From positions 1-60,027 of the forward strand of contig JAADHI010000121.1 in NCBI GenBank assembly GCA_013151935.1: a DNA stretch of 60,027 nt, written 5' to 3'. The stretch's first letter is position 1. Every line of letters begins with the position of its first letter. Of the stretch, positions 23,128 to 53,603 are shown in pieces. A model generated the notes under the pieces. The model made no database searches. It saw only the letters and a list, made by a program, of their open reading frames with translations, and was not told the origin of the DNA. The translations under genes and the position numbers were made by a program. Source of the stretch: Candidatus Manganitrophaceae bacterium. GTDB taxonomy: Bacteria; Nitrospirota; Nitrospiria; SBBL01; JAADHI01.

Positions 23128-24302
23128 AAGCCTTTGCCCATGACGGCATTTTCAAAAATCGCGGCGTAATCTTCTGCGGTGAAAGAAATCGGATTACCCG
23201 AAGCGGAGGGATCGTCAAAGGCCATTTGCCCGATGCGATCCCGTTCGCTTGCCGTGATCCCAATGTCTTGAAGTGTTTCAGGAATTTGAAGGGTTTTTCT
23301 TAAGGACAAGATCCAATCATAGAAAACTTCAAATGAAGCATCGGACAATCCGATGTAAATTGCCGCACGTTTCATTTTTTTCTCAATCGCCGGACGGTTT
23401 CTTCGCAGAACATAGGGCAGGAGGATGGCGTTGAGTAGGCCGTGATGTTTGTCAAAAACGGCTCCCAGGGGATGGGCCAGGGCATGTACCGCACCTAAGC
23501 CTTTTTGAAAAGCGACAGCACCCATTAGAGAGGCGGACATCATGTAGGCCCGTGCCGATAAATCCTGTCCCGCTTCAAAGGCCCTGAGCAAATTTTCTTT
23601 GACCAAGCGCATTCCTTCTAAAGCAATGCCTTCAGCCATGGGGTGAAAACCGGGTGTGCAGTAGGCCTCAAGCAGATGAACGAAGGCATCCAAGCCCGTT
23701 GCGGCAGTGAGATGAGCAGGCAGGCTTCGTGTCAAAGCCGGGTCCGCAATGACAACTTCTGGCAGCATTTTTGGATGAAAAATGATTTTTTTGATTTGGC
23801 AGCTTGTATCCAGAATCACAGCGGCGCGTCCCACTTCTGATCCCGTGCCAGCCGTTGTTGGAATGGCAATGGTCGGCGCAATGGCCTCAGGCTTTACACG
23901 TAGCCAGTTCTCGCCGACATCCTCAAAATCCCAAATGGGCCGATCTTGCCCGACCATTAAAGCGATGGCTTTTCCCGCATCCAAGGCGCTACCCCCACCC
24001 ATCGCGATGACACCGTCGCATCCGGCCTCATGATAAGCGTTCACTCCCTCGTCAATATTTTTTCCCGTAGGGTTTGATTTCACCTTTGAAAACAAACGGC
24101 ATTCAAGCCCTGCCTCTGCGTTGGTTTCGAGTGATTTCAGAATAAAGTCCTGTGTGAGCAATCCAGTATCCGTCACCAATAAGGGATGGGAGATATTCAG
24201 TGAACGACAGGTTTCAGGCAAGCGGGAAATCCGTCCGACCCCGAAATAGACTGAAGTGGGGTAATTCCAATCGCCCTGTAGTTTGTTGTCTTCGGCACTC
24301 AT
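23124..24302 (-). CDS. Iron-containing alcohol dehydrogenase
   Basis: About 392 residues. It has the NAD-binding GGGSALDAGKAIAL motif near residue 95, TIPTTAGTGSEVGRAAV, and the metal-binding His set HALAHPLGAVFDKHHGLLNAILLPYV near 265-290, all of group III Fe-dependent alcohol dehydrogenases. ATG 24302 overlaps the stop of the aldehyde dehydrogenase (ATGA) and has GAAGG upstream, so I reject the longer frame that runs into its neighbour. In this operon it would oxidise an alcohol group, perhaps on a gamma-glutamylated amino alcohol. Confidence 0.92.
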   Translation of the reverse strand: MSAEDNKLQGDWNYPTSVYFGVGRISRLPETCRSLNISHPLLVTDTGLLTQDFILKSLETNAEAGLECRLFSKVKSNPTGKNIDEGVNAYHEAGCDGVIAMGGGSALDAGKAIALMVGQDRPIWDFEDVGENWLRVKPEAIAPTIAIPTTAGTGSEVGRAAVILDTSCQIKKIIFHPKMLPEVVIADPALTRSLPAHLTAATGLDAFVHLLEAYCTPGFHPMAEGIALEGMRLVKENLLRAFEAGQDLSARAYMMSASLMGAVAFQKGLGAVHALAHPLGAVFDKHHGLLNAILLPYVLRRNRPAIEKKMKRAAIYIGLSDASFEVFYDWILSLRKTLQIPETLQDIGITASERDRIGQMAFDDPSASGNPISFTAEDYAAIFENAVMGKGL

Positions 24303-25681
24303 GGAGAAGCCTTCAAATAAAAAGATTTTGGCCGTGTTAATTGAGCATAGCCCAGTTCTGAAAGCGCACACCCTCGCCCGGAATGTTTTACGCCCACCCA
24401 AGCTAACGCTGGGTCAAGATGGTCGCAACGATTCATAAAAACAGTCCCCGTCTGTATTTTGTTTCCGAGTGCCATTGCACGTGTCTCGTCCACCGTCCAA
24501 ATAGACGCCGTCAGTCCATAAGGGCTGTCATTCATCCGTGCTAAGGCGTCATCGTCATTGGCAACCTTCATAATGGTAACAACAGGGCCGAAAGTTTCTT
24601 CTTGCATGATGGTCATGGCATGATCCACATCAATCAAAACTTGCGGCGCCAAATAGGGCGATCCGTCTTTATTCATCATAAAATGTGTGGGCTTGATACA
24701 AGCCGTGGCGCCCGCACGAATGGCCTCGACAATCTGCCCTCGAACACGCTCAGCGGCTTGGGTATTAAGTAGGGGGCCAAGCGTCGTTTCTTTTTTAAGT
24801 GGATTTCCCAAACGATATTTTTTGACCTCAGCCACAAAGGCTTCGACAAAAGTCGCATAAAGCGAATCAGCCACATAAATACGTTCGACCGCGCAACAAG
24901 ACTGACCCGAATTAAAATAAGCCCCATCCACAAGTTGTGCAACGCTGTCTTCTAATACTGCATCTTCACAGACATAGGCCGGATCTTTTCCGCCCAATTC
25001 TAATGCCAGGCCTTTTACTAAACCTGCTGCACTTTTTTCGATCAGTCTCCCCGTCGCAAGTGAGCCCGTAAAAGAAACAAAATCAATTTCCGGGCTTTTG
25101 ATGACGGCGCTACAATCCTCATCGGAGAGATGTAAATATTGAAACACGCCTTCCGGTAAGCCCGCAGACTTGAATGCTTCTTGAAATCGTTCTGCACACA
25201 AAAGCGTTTGCGGCGCATGTTTGAGGATGACGACGTTCCCTGCCATAAGGGCCGGGATGATGGCATTCACCGCCGTGAGATAAGGGTAGTTCCACGGTGC
25301 GATGACAAAAACCACGCCCAAGGCTTCACGATGGATAAAACGAGAAAGCCCTGCTTCTTCCGGCAGCACAATGTTTGTGAGGGCTTTTTGTGCAATATCG
25401 ATCATGTAGCGCCCGCGCGTTGCCAGCCCGTCGATTTCTCCCGGTGTGTATTGAATGGGTCGCCCCATCTGCCAAGTGAGTTCTTCTGCAAAAACATCAC
25501 GATGCGCCATCATATATTCAATCATCTGCTGGCAATAATCAGCGCGTTTTTTAATGGGGATTGATTTCCAAAGCCTTTGCGCTTTGACCGCGGCACTTAA
25601 AGCAGAGGCGGTTTCTTGTGTGTCGGCAAAACTGCGTTTGGCAACAAGACGTCCATCAACCGGAGAAATAATTTTAATCAT
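24299..25681 (-). CDS. NAD(P)-dependent aldehyde dehydrogenase
   Basis: About 460 residues, a full-length ALDH. It shows APWNYPYLTAVNAIIPALMAGN, FTGSLATGRLI (Rossmann), the general base Glu in LELGGKDPAYV, the catalytic Cys in NSGQSCCAVERIYV, and EETFGPVV near the end. ATG 25681 is preceded by GGAGAAGA. It is second in the operon after the glutamine-synthetase-like gene (60 bp gap). The expected job is oxidation of an aldehyde intermediate to the acid before deglutamylation. Confidence 0.92.
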   Translation of the reverse strand: MIKIISPVDGRLVAKRSFADTQETASALSAAVKAQRLWKSIPIKKRADYCQQMIEYMMAHRDVFAEELTWQMGRPIQYTPGEIDGLATRGRYMIDIAQKALTNIVLPEEAGLSRFIHREALGVVFVIAPWNYPYLTAVNAIIPALMAGNVVILKHAPQTLLCAERFQEAFKSAGLPEGVFQYLHLSDEDCSAVIKSPEIDFVSFTGSLATGRLIEKSAAGLVKGLALELGGKDPAYVCEDAVLEDSVAQLVDGAYFNSGQSCCAVERIYVADSLYATFVEAFVAEVKKYRLGNPLKKETTLGPLLNTQAAERVRGQIVEAIRAGATACIKPTHFMMNKDGSPYLAPQVLIDVDHAMTIMQEETFGPVVTIMKVANDDDALARMNDSPYGLTASIWTVDETRAMALGNKIQTGTVFMNRCDHLDPALAWVGVKHSGRGCALSELGYAQLTRPKSFYLKASP

Positions 25682-25741
25682 TCTTCTCCATCTCATTTGA
25701 CCTCCCCCTTTTTTTAAGTGGGGAACAGGTACTTGCCTTTT

Positions 25742-27109
25742 TTATATAATTTCAAAATATCGCTCTAACTCCCACTGAGAAATATGTTTTCTAAATTCGC
25801 GTTCTTCCCACTCCCGGCTGGCGGCAAAATGATCTACAAAGGCGTCGCCAAAAGCACCTCTTGCCATATCGGAAAATTTGAGCGCCTGAGCGGCTTCCCA
25901 AAGTGTCGCTGGAAGATGCAGGTGTTTTGGAAATTTCTGATTATAGGCATTACCGGAAACCATGGTCTCGATTTCAGCTTTGTTTTCTATTCCCCAAAGC
26001 CCGGAAGCGATCACGGCTGATAAAATAATGTAGGGATTTGCATCTGCTGCGGCAACGCGATATTCCAAACGTTGCGACTGTTCACTGCCGGGAATAATGC
26101 GAATGGCACAAGTGCGATTGTCTATGCCGACACTGGCTTCCGTCGGTGCCCAGAAACCGGGGATGAGACGACGATAGCTATTGATTGTCGGTGCAATCAT
26201 CGCCATCAATTCTGGCATGCATTTTTGCTGACCCGCAACAAAGTGACACATTGTAGGACTCATCCCCGCTTTTTGTCCTTCTTCAAAAAAGAGGCTTTTG
26301 TCTTCCAAATTTTTCAGTGAAAGGTGGATGTGTCCGCTCTGACCTGCAAAATCAGGAGACCATTTTGCCATAAACGTCGCCAGCTTGCCTTGTTTTTGCA
26401 AGGCAACTTTTATGAAGGTTTTAAAAAGTGCAGCCTTGTCGGCAGAAGCCATGGCCTGGTCATAGGTCAAAGCAGCCTCTAAGACCCCCGGTCCCGTTTC
26501 TTCGTGTAAGCCTTCTAATGGGAAATCCATTGCTTCCGATAGATCCAATAGGCTCTGATAGATAGAAGATTCCACACTGTTGCGAATGATGGAATAGCCA
26601 AATTCAGCAGGACTCATGGGTTTGAGGTTTTGGTATTTTTTTTCGCGGATGCTTTGGGGTGTTTCGTTAAAAACAAAAAATTCATATTCAAATCCGGACA
26701 AAACCGCTAGACCCATGTCTTTGGCTTTATCAAGGACGCGCTGAAGGGTGGCACGGGGACAGATGGCTGCGCTGTCTCCTGAAAACTCCGCGAGAAAAAG
26801 TAGCATCTTGTCTTCAAGGGGAAGCGCACGGCAGCTTTCGGGTATGATGCGGGCCGTGGCATCGGGATAACCCGTATGCCAGCCCGTATACTTCACATTA
26901 TCATAGAGTTGGTCTGTCACATCCCAGCCCAAGACCACATCACAAAAACCGAAACCTTTGTCCAAGGCAGAAAAAAATTTATCACGCGACATATATTTGC
27001 CACGCATCACCCCGTCAATATCAAAGAGACCCACCTTCACATGTTTCAGTTTTCGCTCTTCAATAATTTGGCGGGCTTGTGCGGCATTTGAAACATCCCG
27101 TATTTGCAT
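25742..27109 (-). CDS. Glutamine synthetase family protein (gamma-glutamyl-amine ligase type)
   Basis: This 455-residue protein has the GS fold: GYPDATARIIPESCRALP, the metal-ligand Glu in FEYEFFVFN, HEETGPGVLEAAL, SGHIHLSL, NSYRRLIPGFWAPTEASVG and the R-x-E in RLEYRVAAADANPY. The N-terminal domain (VKVGLFDIDGVMRGKYMS) is of the PuuA/GlnT type, not housekeeping GlnA. Such enzymes join glutamate to amines (putrescine, isopropylamine, ethanolamine). First gene of the operon with ALDH, ADH and amidotransferase. The amine cannot be read from sequence. Confidence 0.88.
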   Translation of the reverse strand: MQIRDVSNAAQARQIIEERKLKHVKVGLFDIDGVMRGKYMSRDKFFSALDKGFGFCDVVLGWDVTDQLYDNVKYTGWHTGYPDATARIIPESCRALPLEDKMLLFLAEFSGDSAAICPRATLQRVLDKAKDMGLAVLSGFEYEFFVFNETPQSIREKKYQNLKPMSPAEFGYSIIRNSVESSIYQSLLDLSEAMDFPLEGLHEETGPGVLEAALTYDQAMASADKAALFKTFIKVALQKQGKLATFMAKWSPDFAGQSGHIHLSLKNLEDKSLFFEEGQKAGMSPTMCHFVAGQQKCMPELMAMIAPTINSYRRLIPGFWAPTEASVGIDNRTCAIRIIPGSEQSQRLEYRVAAADANPYIILSAVIASGLWGIENKAEIETMVSGNAYNQKFPKHLHLPATLWEAAQALKFSDMARGAFGDAFVDHFAASREWEEREFRKHISQWELERYFEII

Positions 27110-27214: not shown

Positions 27215-30200
27215 TTACCTAATGTTTAAAAAGCTTGCGGAGGGATCTTCGAGTACGGGGCGGTGATAGAGATAGCCTTGCGCTTCGTCACAGCCGAGCG
27301 ATTGCAAAAACTGATGCTGCGCTTTTGTTTCAACACCACCGGCAATGACACCGATTTGAAGACTGTGTGCAAGGGTTTTGATGGCATGTATCACCCGCAC
27401 GCTCTCGTTATTTTTGGGTAGGTCTTGTACAAAAGATCGCTCGATTTTGAGACGATGAATGGGCAAACGGCTTAAATGACTGAGTGAAGAATATCCTGAG
27501 CCAAAGTCATCAATGGTGATGTGGACTCCTTTATGAGACAACTGATCTAAGACGTCGATACTGTGTGCGATCCGTTTCATGATGGCCGTTTCTGTAATCT
27601 CGAGCTCCAAGCGTTCGGCCGCTAAGCCCGTTTTTTTTAGGGCATGGAGAATCAAGTTTACGATGTCGCTGCGTTGGAATTGTACCCCGGAAATATTGAC
27701 GGCAACACGTTTTAAGGCTTGGCCTTGTTTGATCCAATTTGCCATTTGAGCGCAAGCCGTTTCGAGTATCCATTGTTCAATCTCTTGAATTAACCCTGAT
27801 TCTTCGGCAAAGGGGATAAACTTATCGGGGAAGAGAAGCCCAAATTCTGGATGGTTCCAGCGCACGAGTGCTTCCGCAGTGGTGACTTGATTTGTTTTTA
27901 GGGTGTACTGCGCTTGATAGTGTAAAACCAACTCATTTTCCCTCAAGGCCTGGGAGAGTGCTTTTTCAAAACTGAGATGTTCAAAGGTTGCCAGAGACAA
28001 AGAAGGTGTAGAAAACTGAAATTTGTTTCGGCCTGCTTTTTTTGCGCGGCTCATGGCCGTTTTTGCTGTTTCCATGAGCCCATCACCATCAGTCGCATCT
28101 TCGGGGTAAAAACTAATTCCGACACTGATATGCAGACGCATTTCATGGTCATTGATCATAAACGTTTCTTCAAAGATAGCCTTCAATTTTTTAACCAAAA
28201 AAACGACATCTTGTGCTTGACGCATCTTTTCCACGAGGATGACAAACTGGTCTCCCTCGAGACGTGCAACGGTATCCTCATCTCGCATGCTTTTTTTGAT
28301 TCGTCGGGCAACTTCTCTTAAGACCCCGTCGCCGACGGCGTATCCCAAGCGTTCGTTAATTTTTCTGAAAAAATCCAGATCAAGCAGAATGACCGCTAGT
28401 TTTTTTTCTTCGCGCTGGCCGTGTTGCAAGGCGTGTTCAAGGCGATCATTAAGCAAAATTTGATTAGGCAACTTTGTTAAAGGATCATGATGACCAAAAA
28501 AATTACGGTTTTTCTGTGAAGATTTGAGTGGAGAAACATCTGAAAAAACAGAAACATAGTTGACTATTTTCTGAGTGGGGCCGCGTAGTGTCGTGATGAT
28601 CGACCAGGTTGGAAAAAGTTCTCCATTTTTGCGTCTTTTCCAAACTTCTCCCTTCCAAAGGCCCTTATCTCGCAAGTCATGGACTTGCAGCTCATAAAAA
28701 CTTTCTGCATGTTTTCCTGACTTGAGCAGGTCTGGCTTTTTACCAAGCACCTCTTCTCGGCTATAGCCCGTAATTTCGCTATAGGCGGCGTTAATTTCAA
28801 TAATTTCATGTTTATCGTTCGTAATAGCAACAGCATCTTCGGTGTTATTCACGGCAATGAGGGATTGATGCAGTTTGGTTTCGACCTTTTTTTGATGGGT
28901 AATGTCCTGAACAATGCCAAAGGAGCGCACCGCTTTTTCGGTATCATCGTAGAAGGTTTCGCATTGTTCGTTGACGTATCTTATGGTTCCGTCGGCCAAA
29001 AGCAAACGATGTGTGATGTTGTAAGGTATTTTATTGATGACAGACTGGGTATAGGCCTGGTCTACTCTCGCGCGATCATCTGGGTGTACCAGTTTTAAGA
29101 ATCCCTCATAAGTGGCCTCCAGTTGTTTGGGCTGTAGACCAAATATTCGATAGATTTCGTCTGACCAAGTCAAACAATTGTCAACGATATCAAGATTCCA
29201 AATTCCAATATGGGCAATCCGCTGGGCCTCTGTCAGGATATAGTCACTTTTGCTCAGTTTTTTGATGGTGCGTAGGATGTAGAGTGTGTGGGGCAATTGC
29301 GCTGCAATTTCTGAAAAAAGGCTGTCTTCATCTTCAGAATATAAATGTGAGGCATTGTCGTAATGGATGCCAAAAATCCAAGGTTTTCCGATCTTTGTTT
29401 TGATCGCGGTACACATCATGGATTGTTCCCCGCTGAGATGCGGATCTTCGCGTGGCCAAGCTGTTTTGAGGTCGCACTTTAGAATTCCTTCGGACGCCAA
29501 GACTTGTTGACAGCGTGCGGGGTTGAGTGGAATGGGGGCCCTGGCATTGTTTGTAGGTAAGTGAGTTCGACTGACCATTTGTACGATTTGATAACCCTCT
29601 CCTTCGAGGTGAGTCGTTTGGATGAGCCAAGCCCGATCTGCACCAAAGCCTTCTAAAACAAGACGCAGCACTTCTTCTAAGAGGTCTTCGTTATAGCTTG
29701 CGCGCAAACAGGCTGCGGCGATACTTTTGAGGACCTTGTTCCGTGTTTCCCTTTGTTTTTGTTTAGAAATATCCCTTGTCATTCCTTCAAAAAAGAGGGG
29801 TTGTTCCTGTTTGTCGTAAACCCACATCCCATCTGTTTGAACCCACTTGCTTTTACCTGTAAGCGTTACGATCCGGTATTGCTGTGATAAGGCTATTTTT
29901 GTTTCCAGCGCATCTCGAACCTGTGTTTGCAGTATTTTCAAATCTTCTGAATGAATCAAAGAAAGATAGCCCACCTGTTTACGGATTAGTGTTGAAGATT
30001 CATGTCCTGTCAGTGAACGTCCGCCTTGACTGATAAAGAGAAGCGTTAAGGGTGTGTCATTTTGACATCTAAAAACCATGCCCGGAAAACGGTGCATCAT
30101 GGACAGCAGCTTATTTTGCTTGAGCAAGGCCGTGGTTTTTTTTTTCAAACGAAGGAGGATAAAAAGAGCGGCACAAAGAAAGACTAAACTGATGATTGAG

Positions 30201-30220
30201 GCTGAGTTCCAGAACATCAT
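27215..30220 (-). CDS. PAS/GAF sensor with degenerate GGDEF and intact EAL domains
   Basis: A 1001-residue protein. There is one N-terminal membrane helix, then PAS (about 35-155), GAF (165-320), PAS (325-450), PAS (455-570), GGDEF (about 580-740) and EAL (750-1000). The GGDEF signature is RLEGDQF, so two of five positions differ from GGDEF and cyclase activity is doubtful. The EAL domain keeps EALVRW, the Glu in LEITETAIM, DDFGSGYSSLSHL, Lys in RLKIERSFV and GVETKAQ, so it should hydrolyse c-di-GMP. No operon partner; the closest link is the c-di-GMP riboswitch at 8.4 kb. Confidence 0.92.
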   Translation of the reverse strand: MMFWNSASIISLVFLCAALFILLRLKKKTTALLKQNKLLSMMHRFPGMVFRCQNDTPLTLLFISQGGRSLTGHESSTLIRKQVGYLSLIHSEDLKILQTQVRDALETKIALSQQYRIVTLTGKSKWVQTDGMWVYDKQEQPLFFEGMTRDISKQKQRETRNKVLKSIAAACLRASYNEDLLEEVLRLVLEGFGADRAWLIQTTHLEGEGYQIVQMVSRTHLPTNNARAPIPLNPARCQQVLASEGILKCDLKTAWPREDPHLSGEQSMMCTAIKTKIGKPWIFGIHYDNASHLYSEDEDSLFSEIAAQLPHTLYILRTIKKLSKSDYILTEAQRIAHIGIWNLDIVDNCLTWSDEIYRIFGLQPKQLEATYEGFLKLVHPDDRARVDQAYTQSVINKIPYNITHRLLLADGTIRYVNEQCETFYDDTEKAVRSFGIVQDITHQKKVETKLHQSLIAVNNTEDAVAITNDKHEIIEINAAYSEITGYSREEVLGKKPDLLKSGKHAESFYELQVHDLRDKGLWKGEVWKRRKNGELFPTWSIITTLRGPTQKIVNYVSVFSDVSPLKSSQKNRNFFGHHDPLTKLPNQILLNDRLEHALQHGQREEKKLAVILLDLDFFRKINERLGYAVGDGVLREVARRIKKSMRDEDTVARLEGDQFVILVEKMRQAQDVVFLVKKLKAIFEETFMINDHEMRLHISVGISFYPEDATDGDGLMETAKTAMSRAKKAGRNKFQFSTPSLSLATFEHLSFEKALSQALRENELVLHYQAQYTLKTNQVTTAEALVRWNHPEFGLLFPDKFIPFAEESGLIQEIEQWILETACAQMANWIKQGQALKRVAVNISGVQFQRSDIVNLILHALKKTGLAAERLELEITETAIMKRIAHSIDVLDQLSHKGVHITIDDFGSGYSSLSHLSRLPIHRLKIERSFVQDLPKNNESVRVIHAIKTLAHSLQIGVIAGGVETKAQHQFLQSLGCDEAQGYLYHRPVLEDPSASFLNIR

Positions 30221-30444: not shown

Positions 30445-30475
30445 TAATTAGGGGTTGCTTAAAAACGGAGGTATT

Positions 30476-32074
30476 ATGAGCAAGCTTACCTTTAAGGGAA
30501 AAACCTATGTCGGCCGGGACGATGAAACCGTACTTCAGACCTTACAACGTTATGGCGTAACGACACCTTTTTCGTGCCGAGATGGGGTTTGTTATACCTG
30601 CATGTTAAAAAATGTCAGTGGCCCTCCGCCCAAGTCGTCTCAGGCGGGTTTGAGAGCGGGTTTACGCAAGTTGGACTATTTCCTGCCTTGTACCTGTATT
30701 CCAGAAATGGAGATGGAGATTGAAGCGCCGGATGATGCCGATTTGTTTTTACCCGCAACTGTTCTTAAAAAGACGCTGCTCTCCCCTGAAATTTGCCAAG
30801 TCCTGCTAAAACCCGTGACGGCCTTATATTTTCATCCGGGTCAGTTTATTCATTTGCGTCGCCCCGACGGTTTGACCCGAAGTTTTTCGCTTGCGGCCTT
30901 AGCACGTGAAGATTGGGTACTTGAAATACATGTGAAACGCATTCCCCGAGGAATAATGAGCCATTGGATTTTTGATGAATTGCAAGAAGGAGGCAGGGTG
31001 CAAATTGAAGGGCCACAGGGGCATTTTTGTTATCAAAAGGGTCGCTGGGATGCACCGATACTGCTTATCGGCACAGGCTCAGGTTTAGGCCCGCTCTTGG
31101 GTATTGTGCATGAAGCGTTAGAGCAGGGGCACACGGGCGATATTGTTATTTATCACGGCAGTCGCTCAAAAGCAGGTTTGTATGCGCGCGATTTGATTCA
31201 AAAACTCAGTCAAGATCATGCAAACTTTCACGCAGTGTCTTGTGTCTCGGGGCCGGAGGTCCCGGTAGGCTGTAAAGCGGGTCGTGCGAATGACCTTGCG
31301 TTTACAGACCACACAAATCTTGAAGGTACACTTGTTTATTTGTGTGGTCATCCTGAAATGGTCAAGACGGCTAAAAAAAATGCCCTGGGCTGTGGTGCAA
31401 ACGAGGCAGACATTCATGCCGACCCCTTCACCTATACACACGATGGGTCTGATTCACCCCATTCAGGAAAGGACTCAGTTCAAGAAAACGACGAGGCCTT
31501 AACTTATGATGAGCCTAAAGACCCTGCGCCGGACTTGGAGCTTTGGCAGGCCTTGGGGGAAGGAAAACGCTTGCAGGAAATTTTAACGGACTTTTATAGC
31601 CAAGTATATGATGACCCACAGTTGAGTCCCTTTTTTGCGGGCGTGACGCAGCAACGGCTGGCCGAAAAACAATATAATTTTTTATACCAACTCTTAACAG
31701 GAAAATCGGTTTATTTTGGTGAGCGCCCCAAAACGGCCCATCACTGGATGGTGATTTCGGAAAAGTTATTTGATCTGCGGGAAGTGATGATGTCAAATTG
31801 TCTGCGTAAACATGGTGTGCCGGAGCATTTGATTAAACGGTTACGTGCGCTGGAAGAGCGTTATCGTAAGGTCATTGTGAAATCACGTCCCTGGCCGAAA
31901 ATTATTTTTGGCGAAGAGATGCCGCTTGATGGTTATGATGAAATGGAATTAACAGTGGGTTCGCTCTGCGATAGCTGTCAGGGGGACATTCCCTCAGGCA
32001 GTGTGGTGCGATATCACCTTCGCCTTGGCACCATTTATTGTCATGCGTGTATGGGCGACGAAGCAGTGGCTTGA
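30476..32074 (+). CDS. Ferredoxin-FAD/NAD reductase-truncated globin fusion with Cys-pair tail
   Basis: A 532-residue protein whose ATG 30476 has a GGAGG site. In order: plant-type 2Fe-2S ferredoxin (CRDGVCYTC near 33-41, later LPCTC), ferredoxin-reductase FAD domain (RSFSLA near 132) and NAD domain (LLIGTGSGLGPLLG, YLCGHPEMV), an acidic linker, a truncated globin (about 355-470; FYSQVYDDPQLSPFF, proximal His in TAHHWMV), and a C-terminal CDSC...CHAC zinc-knuckle-like pair (about 505-525). This could pass electrons from NAD(P)H to heme, as in flavohemoglobin NO detoxification, but with a different layout. Function is inferred. Confidence 0.88.
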   Translation: MSKLTFKGKTYVGRDDETVLQTLQRYGVTTPFSCRDGVCYTCMLKNVSGPPPKSSQAGLRAGLRKLDYFLPCTCIPEMEMEIEAPDDADLFLPATVLKKTLLSPEICQVLLKPVTALYFHPGQFIHLRRPDGLTRSFSLAALAREDWVLEIHVKRIPRGIMSHWIFDELQEGGRVQIEGPQGHFCYQKGRWDAPILLIGTGSGLGPLLGIVHEALEQGHTGDIVIYHGSRSKAGLYARDLIQKLSQDHANFHAVSCVSGPEVPVGCKAGRANDLAFTDHTNLEGTLVYLCGHPEMVKTAKKNALGCGANEADIHADPFTYTHDGSDSPHSGKDSVQENDEALTYDEPKDPAPDLELWQALGEGKRLQEILTDFYSQVYDDPQLSPFFAGVTQQRLAEKQYNFLYQLLTGKSVYFGERPKTAHHWMVISEKLFDLREVMMSNCLRKHGVPEHLIKRLRALEERYRKVIVKSRPWPKIIFGEEMPLDGYDEMELTVGSLCDSCQGDIPSGSVVRYHLRLGTIYCHACMGDEAVA

Positions 32075-32090: not shown

Positions 32091-33116
32091 CTATTCGACA
32101 AAAGCCACAATGGAATGTAAACCTGAAGTCCCTTCAGGAAATGCCCCGGCGATGAATGAGGTCTGTGTGCGCCCGATACGGTCGGTCGCACGTACGTAAA
32201 CCCGATGATCTCCAGGGGACGCCGTTTCCCACGCATAGTGCCAGTGAACCCAGGCGTAAGGCGAGGTCGCCTTAGCATCCAGTTTCACGCGTTGCCAGGT
32301 TTTTGTATCGTCGAAAGAGATTTCTACCATGCCAATACCGTTATAGCCTGAAAAAGCGATACCGCGAAAGGTATCCCCTTTCTTGATGGTATTGTAGGGG
32401 CCGGGGGCATCAATTCTGGAGCTGACTTTGATGGTTCCCTGATCTGTCCAGCTCTTTTTCTGCCAATAGCCTTTGTAATCATAGTCCGTGAGTTCGAGTT
32501 GTGTGAGCCATTTCACATTTTTAATGCCATAGAGACCCGGTACAATTGCGCGGAGTGGGAAGCCGTGATTTTTATCGAGTGCTTCTCCATTCATTTCATA
32601 GGCCAAGAAGACATCATATTGTGTGGCGCGTTCAAAAGTGATGCTGTCGGAATAATCATCCGCGCCGTAGAGGGCGACATCAACAACAGCGGATTGCGGT
32701 TGGGCTTCTGCCAGAAGATCTTTGAGTTCGATCCCTTTCCATAGGGCGTTACTGATTAAATCGCCCGCGACCTCGTTATCGATACAGGTCAGGGTCACCA
32801 TGCGCTCAATCGCGGGTCTTTTGAGGATGTCATCGTAAGTCAGACGGAGTGGTTTTCTGACCTTGCCTGTAATTTTAAGTGACCAGGTATTGACGTCGAC
32901 TGTTTGTGGCCCGGAATATTGTACGATATAAAAATCTTCAGTCGGGGTGATAAAGGGGGTTTTTTTTGGCGGCAAGGCCAGAAAGCGCTTCATAAAAAAT
33001 GAACCGGCTTCGGCGCGTTTTGCAAAGAGCGTTGAGGTAATGCCTAGACCGGAAACCTGTAGAAATTTCCGGCGCTTTAGTTTTTCGACGTAAATCCCAG
33101 GGGTGATTTTCGGCAT
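32091..33116 (-). CDS. Tat-exported sulfite-oxidase-family molybdoenzyme
   Basis: About 341 residues. The N-terminus has a twin-arginine signal (LKRRKFLQVSGLG). The catalytic domain carries the Mo-ligand Cys in VTLTCIDNEVAG, GFPLRAIVPGLYGIKNVKWLTQLEL, and a C-terminal Mo-co dimerisation domain (GIAFSGYNGIGMVEISFDDTKTWQ, RATDRIGRTQ). The match is to periplasmic sulfite-oxidase-like oxidoreductases without heme. The substrate may be sulfite or another S- or N-oxide. Start at ATG 33116 is preferred to a TTG 14 codons upstream. It converges on the ferredoxin-globin gene. Confidence 0.9.
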   Translation of the reverse strand: MPKITPGIYVEKLKRRKFLQVSGLGITSTLFAKRAEAGSFFMKRFLALPPKKTPFITPTEDFYIVQYSGPQTVDVNTWSLKITGKVRKPLRLTYDDILKRPAIERMVTLTCIDNEVAGDLISNALWKGIELKDLLAEAQPQSAVVDVALYGADDYSDSITFERATQYDVFLAYEMNGEALDKNHGFPLRAIVPGLYGIKNVKWLTQLELTDYDYKGYWQKKSWTDQGTIKVSSRIDAPGPYNTIKKGDTFRGIAFSGYNGIGMVEISFDDTKTWQRVKLDAKATSPYAWVHWHYAWETASPGDHRVYVRATDRIGRTQTSFIAGAFPEGTSGLHSIVAFVE

Positions 33117-33239
33117 GGCCGAAATTATATCGAGACAGTCTTTACTTTTCAATAGCACAAGGCTTCCAAATCACTTCGATGCTATTTTTTTATGCTGGGT
33201 TGCCCGGACAAGCATAAAAAAAATGCTAAGATTGACTCC

Positions 33240-49758: not shown

Positions 49759-52170
49759 ATGGTTAAGGATATTGTCTGTGGGATGGACATTGAAAAAGCG
49801 TCAGCGGCAGGCAGCCATCAGCACAAAGGAGAGACCTATTATTTTTGCAGTACAAAATGTTTATCGGCCTTTCAAAAAGAATCGGATAGATATCTAGCCC
49901 CTGCCAAGGAAGAAACCGTGGAGGAAAAAGACGCTCCCGAATCCGAGGCGACTTACACCTGCCCTATGCACCCGGAGGTTGAACAAGTCGGCCCCGGCGA
50001 CTGTCCTAAATGTGGCATGGCCTTGGAAATCAAGGGCGTCCCCCTTGTCGAGACTAAAACAGAGTACACCTGTCCGATGCATCCCGAAATCATCCAAGAC
50101 CATCCCGGTGATTGTCCAAGATGTGGGATGGCACTCGAAGCACGCACCGTAGAAGCAGAAGAAGATACGAGTGAACTGGATGACATGAACCGCCGTTTCT
50201 GGATAAGTGCTGTGTTGGCCATTCCGGTCTTTTTTAGTGCAATGGCGGCAGAGTTTTGGCCTGAGGCCATGGCAGAGATCATTGACCCGAAACTACGGCA
50301 ATGGATAGAGCTTGTGCTTTCCGCGCCCGTTGTTTGGTGGTGTGGTTGGATTTTTTATGTGCGTGCCGTGAAATCGGTCGTCACGCGTAACTTGAATATG
50401 TTTACCCTCATCGGTCTTGGTGTTTCGGTGGCTTGGCTCTATTCCTTCATTGGTGTTGTGATGCCGGGTATTTTCCCAGAAACTGTTTTTAACAAATTTG
50501 GGGTCGTCCCAGTTTATTTTGAAGCGACTGCGGTGATTACAGCGCTAGTGCTCTTAGGTCAATTGCTCGAACTGCGCGCCCGGAGCCAGACCAACGCCGC
50601 CATTAAACTCTTACTCGGACTGGCGCCAAAAACCGCCCGTCTCGTTCGAGAAGATGGCACAGAAGAGGACATTCCCTTAGAACATGTGAAACTCGGCTTC
50701 GTCTTGCGGGTTCGACCCGGCGAAAAAATTCCGGTCGACGGCACGGTGGTTGAAGGTGAAAGTAATGTCGATGAATCCATGGTGACAGGAGAGCCAATTC
50801 CGGTTGAAAAGTCTGCGGGAGAAAAACTCATCGGTGCAACGATCAACGGCACTGGCGGGCTTCTGATGCGTGCCGAAAAAGTAGGGGCCGATACCCTGCT
50901 TTCGCAAATTGTCAAAATGGTCGCCGATGCTCAGCGCACCCGTGCACCGATCCAGAAGCTGGTCGATGTTGTGGCGGGTTATTTTGTCCCGGTTGTGGTC
51001 ATCATTTCCATCTTAACCTTTATTATATGGGCGGCCGTTGGCCCGGAACCTGCTATCGCTTATGCGGTCATTAATGCAGTGGCGGTCTTGATTATCGCCT
51101 GCCCTTGTGCATTGGGTCTTGCGACGCCGATGTCGATTATGGTGGGTACGGGGAAAGGTGCGATGATGGGCGTTTTAATCAAAAATGCCGAGGCATTGGA
51201 AATTTTGAGAAAGGTCGATACTTTAGTTGTCGATAAAACCGGCACGCTCACAGAGGGAAAACCGAAACTGGTTTCCGTCACCACCGTCGGTGGTTTTGAA
51301 GAAAAGCTGGCTTTAGGTTTGGCCGCCAGTCTGGAACGGTCGAGCGAACATCCTTTGGCTGAAGCCATTGTTCGGGGGGCCGAGGAACGTGGTGTTGCTT
51401 TGAGTAAAACAAACGACTTCCAATCGATCACCGGTAAGGGGGTCACAGGCGAAGTTGATGGTCACACTGTTGCGCTTGGCAACATAAAATTGTTGGAAAG
51501 TCTCGACATCGAGGCGGGTGAACTCCCCGGACAGGCCGATCTTGGCCGGGCCGAGGGTCAGACGGTGATGTTTTTGGCGATTGACGGCAAAGCCGCAGGC
51601 CTTGTCGGTGTCGCCGATCCGATAAAGGCATCGACTCCAGAAGCCATTGAAAATCTGCACAAGGAAGGGATCAAAGTGGTAATGCTCACCGGAGACAGCC
51701 TAAAGACTGCAGAAGCGGTGGCCTCAAAACTCGACATTGATCAGGTTCAGGCAGAGGTTCTTCCCGACCAGAAAGCCTCGGTGGTGAAAGCCTTGCAGGC
51801 TGAAGGGAAGATTGTGGCGATGGCGGGTGATGGGATCAACGATGCTCCCGCCCTGGCTCAGGCACAGGTGGGTATCGCCATGGGAACGGGAACCGATGTG
51901 GCCATGGAAAGTGCGGGTGTGACACTTGTGAAAGGCGATCTGCGCGGCATTGTTCGGGCACGGCGTTTGAGCCGTGCGACAATGGCCAATATTCGACAGA
52001 ATCTATTCTTTGCCTTTATCTACAATGCACTCGGGGTGCCGGTTGCCGCTGGGGTCTTGTATCCCTTCTTCGGGATATTGCTTTCGCCGATTATTGCTGC
52101 AGCGGCGATGAGTTTCAGCTCAGTGTCGGTCATTATGAATGCACTTCGTCTTAGAAATGTGAACCTGTAG
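49759..52170 (+). CDS. Copper-type heavy-metal P1B ATPase with YHS and two HMBD domains
   Basis: An 803-residue protein. YHS domain (about 3-45, [16 protein letters not shown]), two heavy-metal-binding domains (YTCPMHPE...CPKCGMALE at 66-90 and again 103-127), eight membrane helices, an actuator TGEPIPV, the CPC motif in [13 protein letters not shown], phosphorylation site [11 protein letters not shown] in SEHPLAEA, and [15 protein letters not shown] and HMBD place it in the CopA/CopB Cu or Ag exporter group; it pumps metal to the periplasm. No classic HMA domain is present. A GGAGG site precedes ATG 49759. Confidence 0.95.
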
Positions 52171-52208
52171 TGATGAAAAGTACGGTCGATAAAAAAGGAG
52201 GTGAAGAC

Positions 52209-52478
52209 ATGATCAAGGATCCGGTTTGTGGAATGGATGTTGATGAAAAAAACACGAAATTAACGAGTACCTACAATGGTCGTTGTTACATCTTTTGTTC
52301 GATATCCTGCAAGACGACCTTTGAAAAAGACCCGAATCGTGTGTTGGGTGGCCGGGATAAAAACGGTCAAGCTCAACATGAGTCTGCTTGTTGCAGTGAT
52401 GATTCTGAGCAGACCTCTGGGTGTTGTTCCGAGGAGGAAAACAAAAGTATTTCTCAAAAAAGTAGTTGCTGTTGTTGA
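52209..52478 (+). CDS. YHS-domain protein with a Cys-rich tail
   Basis: About 89 residues from ATG 52209, which has AGGAGG upstream; in-frame starts from 52170 are weaker. The YHS domain (KDPVCGMDVDEKN, CYIFCSISCKTTFEKDP) is followed by a tail with 7 Cys in pairs and triples (ACCSDD, GCCSEE, SSCCC). It looks like a small metal-binding chaperone or buffer for the ATPase beside it. The role is inferred. Confidence 0.82.
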   Translation: MIKDPVCGMDVDEKNTKLTSTYNGRCYIFCSISCKTTFEKDPNRVLGGRDKNGQAQHESACCSDDSEQTSGCCSEEENKSISQKSSCCC

Positions 52479-52615
52479 TGGGATTGTAAGCAAAAAGTAG
52501 AAAGAAAAAAGGAGGTGAGGTCATGCTCACGGTTCTCTCTGTAACGATGGCTGAGGGATACCAAGGACATCTCCAACTCTCACTAAGACATAGAAATCGG
52601 AAAGGGGGAGGGGCT

Positions 52616-53263
52616 ATGAAAACAGGGGTTCCGGCGGGAGGCGCATGGGGTCTCACCGCCGTCATGGTTGTGATCACATCTTGGGTTCTCTATCGTTATC
52701 TCGCGCCCAAGGGCTGGCGGGAGTGGAGTCGGGCAGGCATCGTGCAGGCCTTCATTATTGCCCTTTATGCGGAGATGTATGGCTTCCCGCTCACGCTCTA
52801 CTTGGTTTCCGGTTTTTTTGGGATTGATATTCCGATACTGCATAATAGCGGACACCTCTGGGCAGCACTTTTTAACTGGGGAGATTTAGGGGCATTGGTT
52901 GAAATGCTGGTGGGCTACACCTTTGTCTTTTTAGGAATCTCTATCCTCATCGAAGGTTGGCGGGAAGTCTATATCGCCACACGAGATAAGCGTTTGGCGA
53001 CTGAGGGACTCTATGGTGTGGTTCGACATCCGCAATATACCGGGATATTTTTAGCGATCTTCGGGCAATTGATTCACTGGCCCACGATTCCGACACTGGT
53101 TATTTTTCCGATCATGGTGTGGGCTTATTATCGGCTTTCGCTCCGAGAAGAAAAACAGATGGTCAAACAATTTGGAAAGCGTTACGAAGACTACATGAAA
53201 AACCGACCGATGTTTCTGCCACGCAGAGGCAAATGGAAACAGTTCATCAATGCAAGCAGGTAA
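52616..53263 (+). CDS. Membrane methyltransferase, isoprenylcysteine carboxyl methyltransferase-like
   Basis: About 215 residues with five or six membrane helices. The C-terminal half has the ICMT/PEMT pattern: LATEGLYGVVRHPQYTGIFLAIFGQLIHWPT and LREEKQMVKQFGKRYEDYM. I prefer ATG 52616 (GGGGGAGGGG upstream) because the core starts there; an in-frame ATG at 52523 with a strong AGGAGGTGAGG site would add 31 polar residues and may be used. The substrate is unknown; such genes often sit in metal islands. Confidence 0.8.
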   Translation: MKTGVPAGGAWGLTAVMVVITSWVLYRYLAPKGWREWSRAGIVQAFIIALYAEMYGFPLTLYLVSGFFGIDIPILHNSGHLWAALFNWGDLGALVEMLVGYTFVFLGISILIEGWREVYIATRDKRLATEGLYGVVRHPQYTGIFLAIFGQLIHWPTIPTLVIFPIMVWAYYRLSLREEKQMVKQFGKRYEDYMKNRPMFLPRRGKWKQFINASR

Positions 53264-53288
53264 TAGATGAGAAAGGAAGGAGGCTACC

Positions 53289-53603
53289 ATGGAAGGCTTA
53301 GGATCATTTCTACTTTTTGCCGCTTTTTTCTACTTCATGATGCGATTTGGCTGTGGTGCGCACATGGTGAATGGCGGACACGATAAACATGGGAAAAAAG
53401 ACGAAAAACATGAACACACAAACACCCAGAAAGAAGATGGAAAACAGACCGATCCGGTCTGTGGTATGTCTGTTGAGTCCGACTCAGGTTACGGGAAAAT
53501 GCACAAGAATCAGCTCTATCGCTTTTGCTCAAAAAAATGTCTCGACCAATTTGATGCTGATCCCGAACCGTTTTTAAAACAACTGAAGGGAGGTGACTTA
53601 TGA
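53289..53603 (+). CDS. Membrane-anchored YHS-domain protein
   Basis: A 104-residue protein with one N-terminal helix (SFLLFAAFFYFMMRFGCGAH), a His/Lys-rich linker (DKHGKKDEKHEHTN) and a C-terminal YHS domain (DPVCGMSVESDSG, YRFCSKKCLDQFDADP). This is the third YHS domain in 4 kb. It probably binds metal near the membrane. GGAGG precedes ATG 53289; the stop overlaps the next gene by 4 bp. Confidence 0.82.
   Translation: MEGLGSFLLFAAFFYFMMRFGCGAHMVNGGHDKHGKKDEKHEHTNTQKEDGKQTDPVCGMSVESDSGYGKMHKNQLYRFCSKKCLDQFDADPEPFLKQLKGGDL

Follow-up and report, generated by a model that had tools for sequence, protein, structure and literature searches.

We found that a gene in the window (the whole 60,027-nucleotide stretch of DNA analysed here) encodes a single-chain fusion of a ferredoxin domain, an FAD/NAD reductase, a truncated globin and a C-terminal tail with two pairs of cysteines. 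The fusion family is rare and previously unnamed, and it is present in two phyla. What is also new here is that its globin and tail (the globin-C4 unit), with or without the reductase, are encoded with a module of roadblock, ABC-phosphatase and small-GTPase genes. In the reading that we consider the most likely, at about even confidence, the protein would be a self-reducing heme unit for O2 or NO that serves as a redox or gas input to the roadblock/ABC-phosphatase module. The fusion gene, its signals, its domains and its flanking genes are located as follows.

27215 to 30220, minus strand: divergent neighbour of the PAS/GAF-GGDEF-EAL type, 1001 aa (GGDEF profile match); order kept in the congener locus L003
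30360 to 30387, plus strand: promoter-like TTGACA-16-TACACT (10/12, consensus scan), weak, as the number found is not above that in shuffles
30466 to 30470, plus strand: ribosome-binding site GGAGG, 5 bases before the fusion ATG (read in the sequence)
30476 to 32074, plus strand: fusion gene, 532 aa, in the order Fer2, FAD, NAD, truncated globin and C4 tail (ORF, translation, Pfam, 21 intact family members)
30494 to 30703, plus strand: plant-type [2Fe-2S] domain, aa 7-76, ligands C34, C39, C42 and C72 (Pfam Fer2, E 1.8e-8)
30767 to 31033, plus strand: FAD-binding domain, aa 98-186, with R135-x-(Y/F)-S138 (Pfam FAD_binding_6, E 1.7e-10)
31064 to 31375, plus strand: NAD(P)-binding domain, aa 197-300, with motifs G-T-G-S-G and C-G-H-P (Pfam NAD_binding_1, E 2.8e-15)
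31376 to 31531, plus strand: variable linker, aa ~301-352, of which aa 319-345 are predicted disordered (congener identity, pLDDT)
31541 to 31849, plus strand: truncated globin domain, aa 356-458, with TyrB10 Y374, GlnE11 Q399 and HisF8 H422, then H423-W424-M425 (Pfam Bac_globin, E 2e-11; HbN alignment)
31967 to 32050, plus strand: C4 knuckle C498-x2-C501-x20-C522-x2-C525, probable zinc treble-clef or ribbon (invariant Cys)
32091 to 33158, minus strand: SorA/SoxC-like molybdopterin oxidoreductase (Oxidored_molyb and Mo-co_dimer), convergent, its stop codon 17 bases from that of the fusion

The ORF list and translation show 532 codons open from the ATG at 30476-32074, while the opposite strand over the same positions is interrupted by many stops. 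All four Pfam domains (Fer2, FAD_binding_6, NAD_binding_1 and Bac_globin) lie above their own curated cut-offs. For the C4 tail, Pfam gave no match above cut-off, zinc-finger matches being sub-threshold only. No NCBIfam model reached its cut-off for the protein, the best being reductases of the BenC/MmoC/PRK05713 type. When the PDB was searched by sequence, the first 320 residues matched the P450 reductase GcoB (5ogx, E 1e-39), and the best match of the globin part was Mycobacterium tuberculosis HbN (1idr). The first-pass annotation, made from the letters of the DNA, had described ferredoxin, reductase, truncated globin and CxxC...CxxC in one chain, and this description was confirmed by the ORF, by Pfam and by 20 further intact relatives.

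AlphaFold2 was run on the globin plus tail and on the full-length fusion. The globin-plus-tail model (pLDDT 79) has a globin fold that matches the group 1 truncated hemoglobins, with TM scores of 0.79 to 0.86 normalised by target length. The fold of the reductase part is nearest to that of GcoB (5ogx), and it also matches the reductase part of the flavohemoglobin structure 1gvh. In the full-length model, the reductase and globin cores are confident and the linker at aa 319-345 has a pLDDT below 50. Since the pTM is 0.52 and the linker is disordered, the model does not fix the placement of the domains, and hence the electron path from cluster to heme.

In the public genome scan, the whole protein is encoded on only one other contig, at locus L003, with 77% identity. 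L003 belongs to a MAG filed as Nitrospira sp., and its sequence is identical to locus L050 of G003, a congener of the window's own genome (G000; 2.5 Mb, 91% complete). The gene order around the fusion is the same in L003, with the GGDEF-type gene upstream and the SorA-like gene downstream. Using a globin-plus-tail profile, we found many further members in the Gammaproteobacteria, giving 21 intact fusions in all: the window, L003 and 19 gammaproteobacterial proteins (L082-L084, L094-L100, L102, L103, L106, L107, L109-L112 and L148, of which a few begin or stop at the edge of a contig). Partial forms also occur: in L104 the reductase and globin are split over two ORFs, in L105 the N-terminal part lies in another frame, and L044, L101, L158 and L159 encode globin-C4 alone, without reductase. 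At L108:1504-2436 (minus strand), Fer2 is joined straight to globin-C4 without FAD and NAD domains, which may be a natural deletion or may stem from faulty assembly.

Among 296 sampled genomes, no fusion was found besides that of G000, with G003 of the same genus also carrying it; a wide spread in Nitrospirota was therefore rejected. A plasmid or mobile origin was likewise set aside: no plasmid record covers at least 80% of the protein, and the plasmid matches are reductase relatives only. We found no description of the fusion architecture or of the roadblock/ABC-phosphatase module in the open-access literature; an earlier account elsewhere is possible.

We then compared the window protein with that of L003, in which synonymous sites are near saturation, so that the dN/dS ratios are indicative only. 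These ratios are about 0.1 for the reductase domains and 0.06 for the tail. The globin, whose synonymous sites are saturated, has the lowest dN of all domains (0.09) and the highest protein identity (86%). The linker has the highest dN (0.44), with 44% identity over aa 321-352, and only the linker evolves freely between the two congeners. The congener with the same gene order, the 19 further intact members and the low dN/dS, which indicates purifying selection, together rule out chance, a frameshift or a misassembly as the source of the fusion.

Conservation of the cofactor and tail residues was counted in an alignment of 25 family members, partial forms included. The four Fer2 ligand cysteines are kept in 20/20, 20/20, 20/20 and 21/21 of the members having the domain, and the Arg and Ser of the FAD domain in 21/21. 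In the globin, TyrB10, HisF8 and the His, Trp and Met that follow it are each present in 25/25 members; loss of the proximal His in an alignment, a check proposed in the first-pass annotation, is thus not seen. GlnE11 is kept in 23/25 members, and the G8 residue varies between Trp, Leu, Phe, Ile and Met (Leu in the window protein). The alignment also shows that the Gly-Gly hinge motifs of group 1 truncated hemoglobins (A-B and E-F) are altered in the fused globin, from LGG to LGE and from GGP to TGK. In the tail, the four Cys and G518 are present in all 25 members and H514 in 23, and the tail is probably a zinc knuckle.

The closest stand-alone relatives of the reductase half, 34-44% identical, occur in methanotrophs, Gallionellaceae, Ferrovum, Pseudoalteromonas and Armatimonadota. 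At 41 of the 44 loci of this kind, a separate glbN-type truncated-globin gene ends within about 240 bp upstream of the reductase, often with a divergent NsrR-like gene and sometimes with a RIC/YtfE-like gene downstream. Methylocystis plasmids carry the same gene pair. Loci L004-L049 (for example L004:3715-6708), with glbN, a Fer2-FAD-NAD reductase and often NsrR or RIC, make up a broad and little-described NO-response gene set, and the stand-alone glbN-reductase sets with NsrR and RIC are predicted to act in NO detoxification.

The reductase tree places the fused halves on a single branch (SH-aLRT 86) nested inside the clade of glbN-linked reductases, and this clade, fused halves included, is split from the outgroups at SH-aLRT 99. 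A single origin of the fused reductase halves is likely on this tree. In the globin tree, the fused globins fall among other truncated globins, including the second one encoded by the window's genome, and a branch of 2.24 (SH-aLRT 100) sets them apart from all operon GlbN globins. A joint alignment with the operon globins misplaced sequences and was kept out of folding. The trees rule out that a neighbouring glbN was fused to its own reductase, since the reductase is of that clade and the globin is not; together they indicate that the fusion combined an NO-related reductase with a globin of different descent. As judged from the sequences, this mixed ancestry gives strong indirect support to an NAD(P)H-driven globin, and not to orthology with the NsrR system. 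The second truncated globin of G000 (L002:1465-1899, plus strand, contig C142) is a single domain without a C4 tail and shares its broad lineage with the fused globin. Another locus, L089:1153-2022 (minus strand), encodes a tandem protein in which a globin-like domain at the N terminus precedes a truncated globin.

Single-chain globin-reductases are known mainly as flavohemoglobins, in which the globin comes first. Like flavohemoglobin (Hmp/FHb), the fusion has a globin and an FNR-type FAD/NAD reductase in one chain, for transfer from NAD(P)H to heme. However, the globin of Hmp is N-terminal and of the 3/3 type, and Hmp lacks a [2Fe-2S] domain, whereas the fusion has Fer2 and reductase first, a truncated 2/2 globin and the C4 tail last. 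The contrast with flavohemoglobin in domain order, already drawn in the first-pass annotation, is borne out by Pfam and the fold matches, which place the globin at aa 356-458, after the reductase. Thus the fusion works like a flavohemoglobin in principle but is not one, since it differs in domain order, in the class of its globin and in having an iron-sulfur domain. It represents a single-chain globin-reductase that was built independently: the order is reversed, an iron-sulfur step is added, the globin is of the truncated type, and the putative metal-binding tail is invariant. This design is conserved in two phyla. The globin itself resembles group 1 truncated hemoglobins: its 2/2 fold is closest to HbN/GlbN, and HisF8, TyrB10 and GlnE11 are present.

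The fusion also resembles the NsrR-type glbN-reductase system, in that its reductase has the same clade and domain order and its partner is a truncated globin. In Legionella, glbN-lpg2536 was predicted to be the sole NsrR target and to oxidise NO like Hmp (PMC1274295; PMC3820574 cited alongside). In that system, however, the genes are separate and the globin is of another lineage and has no C4 tail, and the NsrR/RIC context is absent at the fusion. Both its globin lineage and its context therefore place the fusion outside the NsrR glbN system as that system is defined. The NR2-2/2HbN protein of raphidophytes differs from the fusion in its eukaryotic nitrate reductase frame, in having the reductase C-terminal to the globin, and in lacking Fer2 and the C4 tail, as judged from its description and from general knowledge. 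Its likeness to the fusion lies in a truncated globin in one chain with a flavin reductase; it is a nitrate reductase with an inserted truncated hemoglobin, described as NO-metabolising (PMC3820574).

Clustering of the neighbouring genes over the family loci revealed a co-directional gene set in the Gammaproteobacteria. Directly upstream of the fusion in 15 of 23 loci, which span several divergent lineages, lie genes for a 384-aa protein, a GTPase, the ABC-phosphatase, roadblock 1, and roadblock 2 or a YkgJ-like protein, in this order. The 384-aa protein has no assigned function, and the ABC-phosphatase combines an ABC-ATPase with a phosphatase of the dual-specificity type in one fused protein. 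Roadblock 1 has no match in Pfam and is termed roadblock-like from its weak similarity to roadblock 2. Parts of the module lie beside three more members; such neighbours are present at L148, L158 and L159. Several gammaproteobacterial members are followed or flanked by PAS-GGDEF-EAL genes. The link with the module is kept by stand-alone globin-C4 without reductase (L044, L158 and L159). The globin-C4 unit is the constant core, and the reductase is a usual but dispensable addition.

We found the ABC-phosphatase in 22 of 23 fusion genomes, including G000 and G003, with matches covering the phosphatase part, whereas six relatives without the fusion (G001, G002 and G004-G007) match it only as generic ABC ATPases. 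Roadblock 1 is present in 24 of 25 genomes with globin-C4 versus 6 of 55 without (Fisher p 8e-14, kinship ignored). Within the genus, roadblock 1 and globin-C4 are both found in G000 and G003, and neither in G001, G002 and G004.

The small GTPase and roadblock occur in the same genome in the Gammaproteobacteria. In the genomes G000 (91% complete) and G003, the ABC-phosphatase adjoins roadblock 1 on another contig, unlinked to the fusion, and the GTPase of the module was not found. The window's lineage retains only roadblock 1 and the ABC-phosphatase of the module; since the pair is unlinked and the GTPase was not found, a GTPase circuit of the same form cannot be at work there. On contig C104 of G000 (L133:8778-10410, minus strand), the roadblock-like gene and then the ABC-ATPase/phosphatase gene stand beside nuo genes.

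Six genomes have the module without the globin, which indicates that the module is autonomous and the globin an optional partner. Five of the six keep roadblock and ABC-phosphatase with the GTPase and 384-aa genes, and in the sixth, G716, the gene set ends at the contig end. These globin-less loci (L142-L147, for example L146:2034-5549, minus strand) represent an apparently undescribed autonomous proteobacterial small-GTPase module; the module in L144 is cut by a contig end, and the ABC-phosphatase of L147 is in pieces.

The co-occurrence with the module suggests that a bacterial signalling system receives a heme-based input, and the company of globin-C4 gives this unstudied proteobacterial module a candidate input: heme, redox, NO or O2. 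It would also be a second, independent case of a globin associated with roadblock, beside the HGbRL protein of Methylacidiphilum, a globin fused to a Roadblock/LC7 domain that was proposed to be a sensor (PMC4476040). HGbRL shares with the fusion family the link between a globin and a roadblock protein, but carries both in one chain, has a globin of another group with GlnE7, and has no reductase. In actinobacterial conservons (CvnA-D) and MglA/MglB, a roadblock protein and a small Ras-like GTPase are likewise encoded together; in contrast, the module here has no CvnA-type kinase, and has an ABC-ATPase/phosphatase fusion instead and a globin-reductase as heme partner. Globin-coupled sensors have an N-terminal sensor-type 3/3 globin and a transmitter, whereas in the fusion the truncated globin is C-terminal and Pfam finds no transmitter domain.

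Fer2-bearing reductases of the FNR type pass hydride electrons from NAD(P)H to FAD and then to [2Fe-2S]; O2 binding and NO oxidation are known for HbN-like pockets. In the mechanism that we propose, electrons would pass from NAD(P)H through FAD and the N-terminal [2Fe-2S] cluster to the heme of the C-terminal truncated globin, the cluster handing them over within the same chain or within a dimer. The heme, with HisF8 as proximal and TyrB10/GlnE11 as distal residues, would be kept ferrous and would bind O2 and NO, and cycling with NO would lead to NO dioxygenation. The C4 tail may bind zinc and dock to a partner. Globin-C4 would most likely feed a heme-based redox or gas (NO/O2) signal into the roadblock/ABC-ATPase-phosphatase module, often together with a Ras-like GTPase, and c-di-GMP enzymes are possible downstream partners. 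While the domains, cofactor residues, family-wide conservation, mixed ancestry, gene linkage and co-occurrence are read directly in the sequences, we infer the cofactor occupancy, electron path, ligand, zinc and direction of signalling. The self-sufficient chain from NAD(P)H through FAD and [2Fe-2S] to heme, as envisaged in the first-pass annotation, is well supported as anatomy by the sequence, the invariant cofactor residues and the fold matches. NO or O2 chemistry is plausible from the HbN-like TyrB10/GlnE11 and the glbN-operon lineage of the reductase.

The input reading is the most likely because the globin-C4 core keeps the company of the module even without the reductase or with the genes unlinked. 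More tentatively, the family may represent a new class of heme input for Ras-like/roadblock signalling, in which an NADH-driven [2Fe-2S]/flavin reductase and a truncated hemoglobin would reset or read O2/NO and signal through the C4 zinc knuckle to the roadblock/ABC-ATPase-phosphatase proteins, with or without the GTPase, and with c-di-GMP outputs. The fusion also bears on the old question of what reduces truncated hemoglobins in vivo.

The main alternative is that the protein is a plain NO dioxygenase or O2/NO scavenger, a flavohemoglobin analogue made from other parts, with the module linkage reflecting co-regulation or being incidental. It would fit the TyrB10/GlnE11 pocket as in HbN and the descent of the reductase half from a lineage paired with glbN in NsrR/RIC gene sets, as well as the Legionella prediction of Hmp-like NO oxidation (PMC1274295) and the description of fused truncated hemoglobin-reductases such as NR2-2/2HbN as NO-metabolising (PMC3820574). 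However, the globin comes from another truncated hemoglobin lineage, the linked genes are signalling genes, and some members are without a reductase, which turnover would require; neither in the window nor in the family loci that were read was an NsrR, RIC or denitrification gene found close to the fusion. We regard plain NO removal as somewhat unlikely. Given the tie to the roadblock/GTPase/ABC-phosphatase module, a role as signalling or redox input is no less likely than simple removal of NO, and signalling input and NO dioxygenation can both hold for one protein.

It is improbable that the fusion is a heme enzyme with another substrate (for example a peroxidase, a superoxide/H2O2-producing oxidase or an enzyme for a terminal step of oxygen activation) that is linked with the metabolism of sulfur or nitrogen. 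Its reductase does resemble those feeding oxygenases and P450s, and the SorA/SoxC-like sulfite dehydrogenase gene is convergent with the fusion in both Nitrospirota members (the window and L003). But this neighbour occurs in the two congeners only and was rejected as a functional partner, and no metabolic neighbour is shared in the other members read. That the globin binds no heme and is only a docking module for the reductase, as its distance from the glbN clade and its degenerate Gly-Gly motifs might suggest, is very hard to reconcile with the strict conservation of TyrB10 and HisF8, and the near-complete conservation of GlnE11, across 25 divergent members, and with the globin having the lowest dN of all domains.

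The remaining neighbours of the fusion in the window are housekeeping genes. Elsewhere in the window, a glutamine synthetase-like gene (25742-27109) is followed by an aldehyde-dehydrogenase-like gene (24299-25696) on the minus strand (24299-27109), as in polyamine use. On the plus strand, a gene run at 49759-53603 carries YHS-like 'DPVCGM(D)' metal motifs, and its first product, of 803 aa, resembles a metal P-type ATPase.
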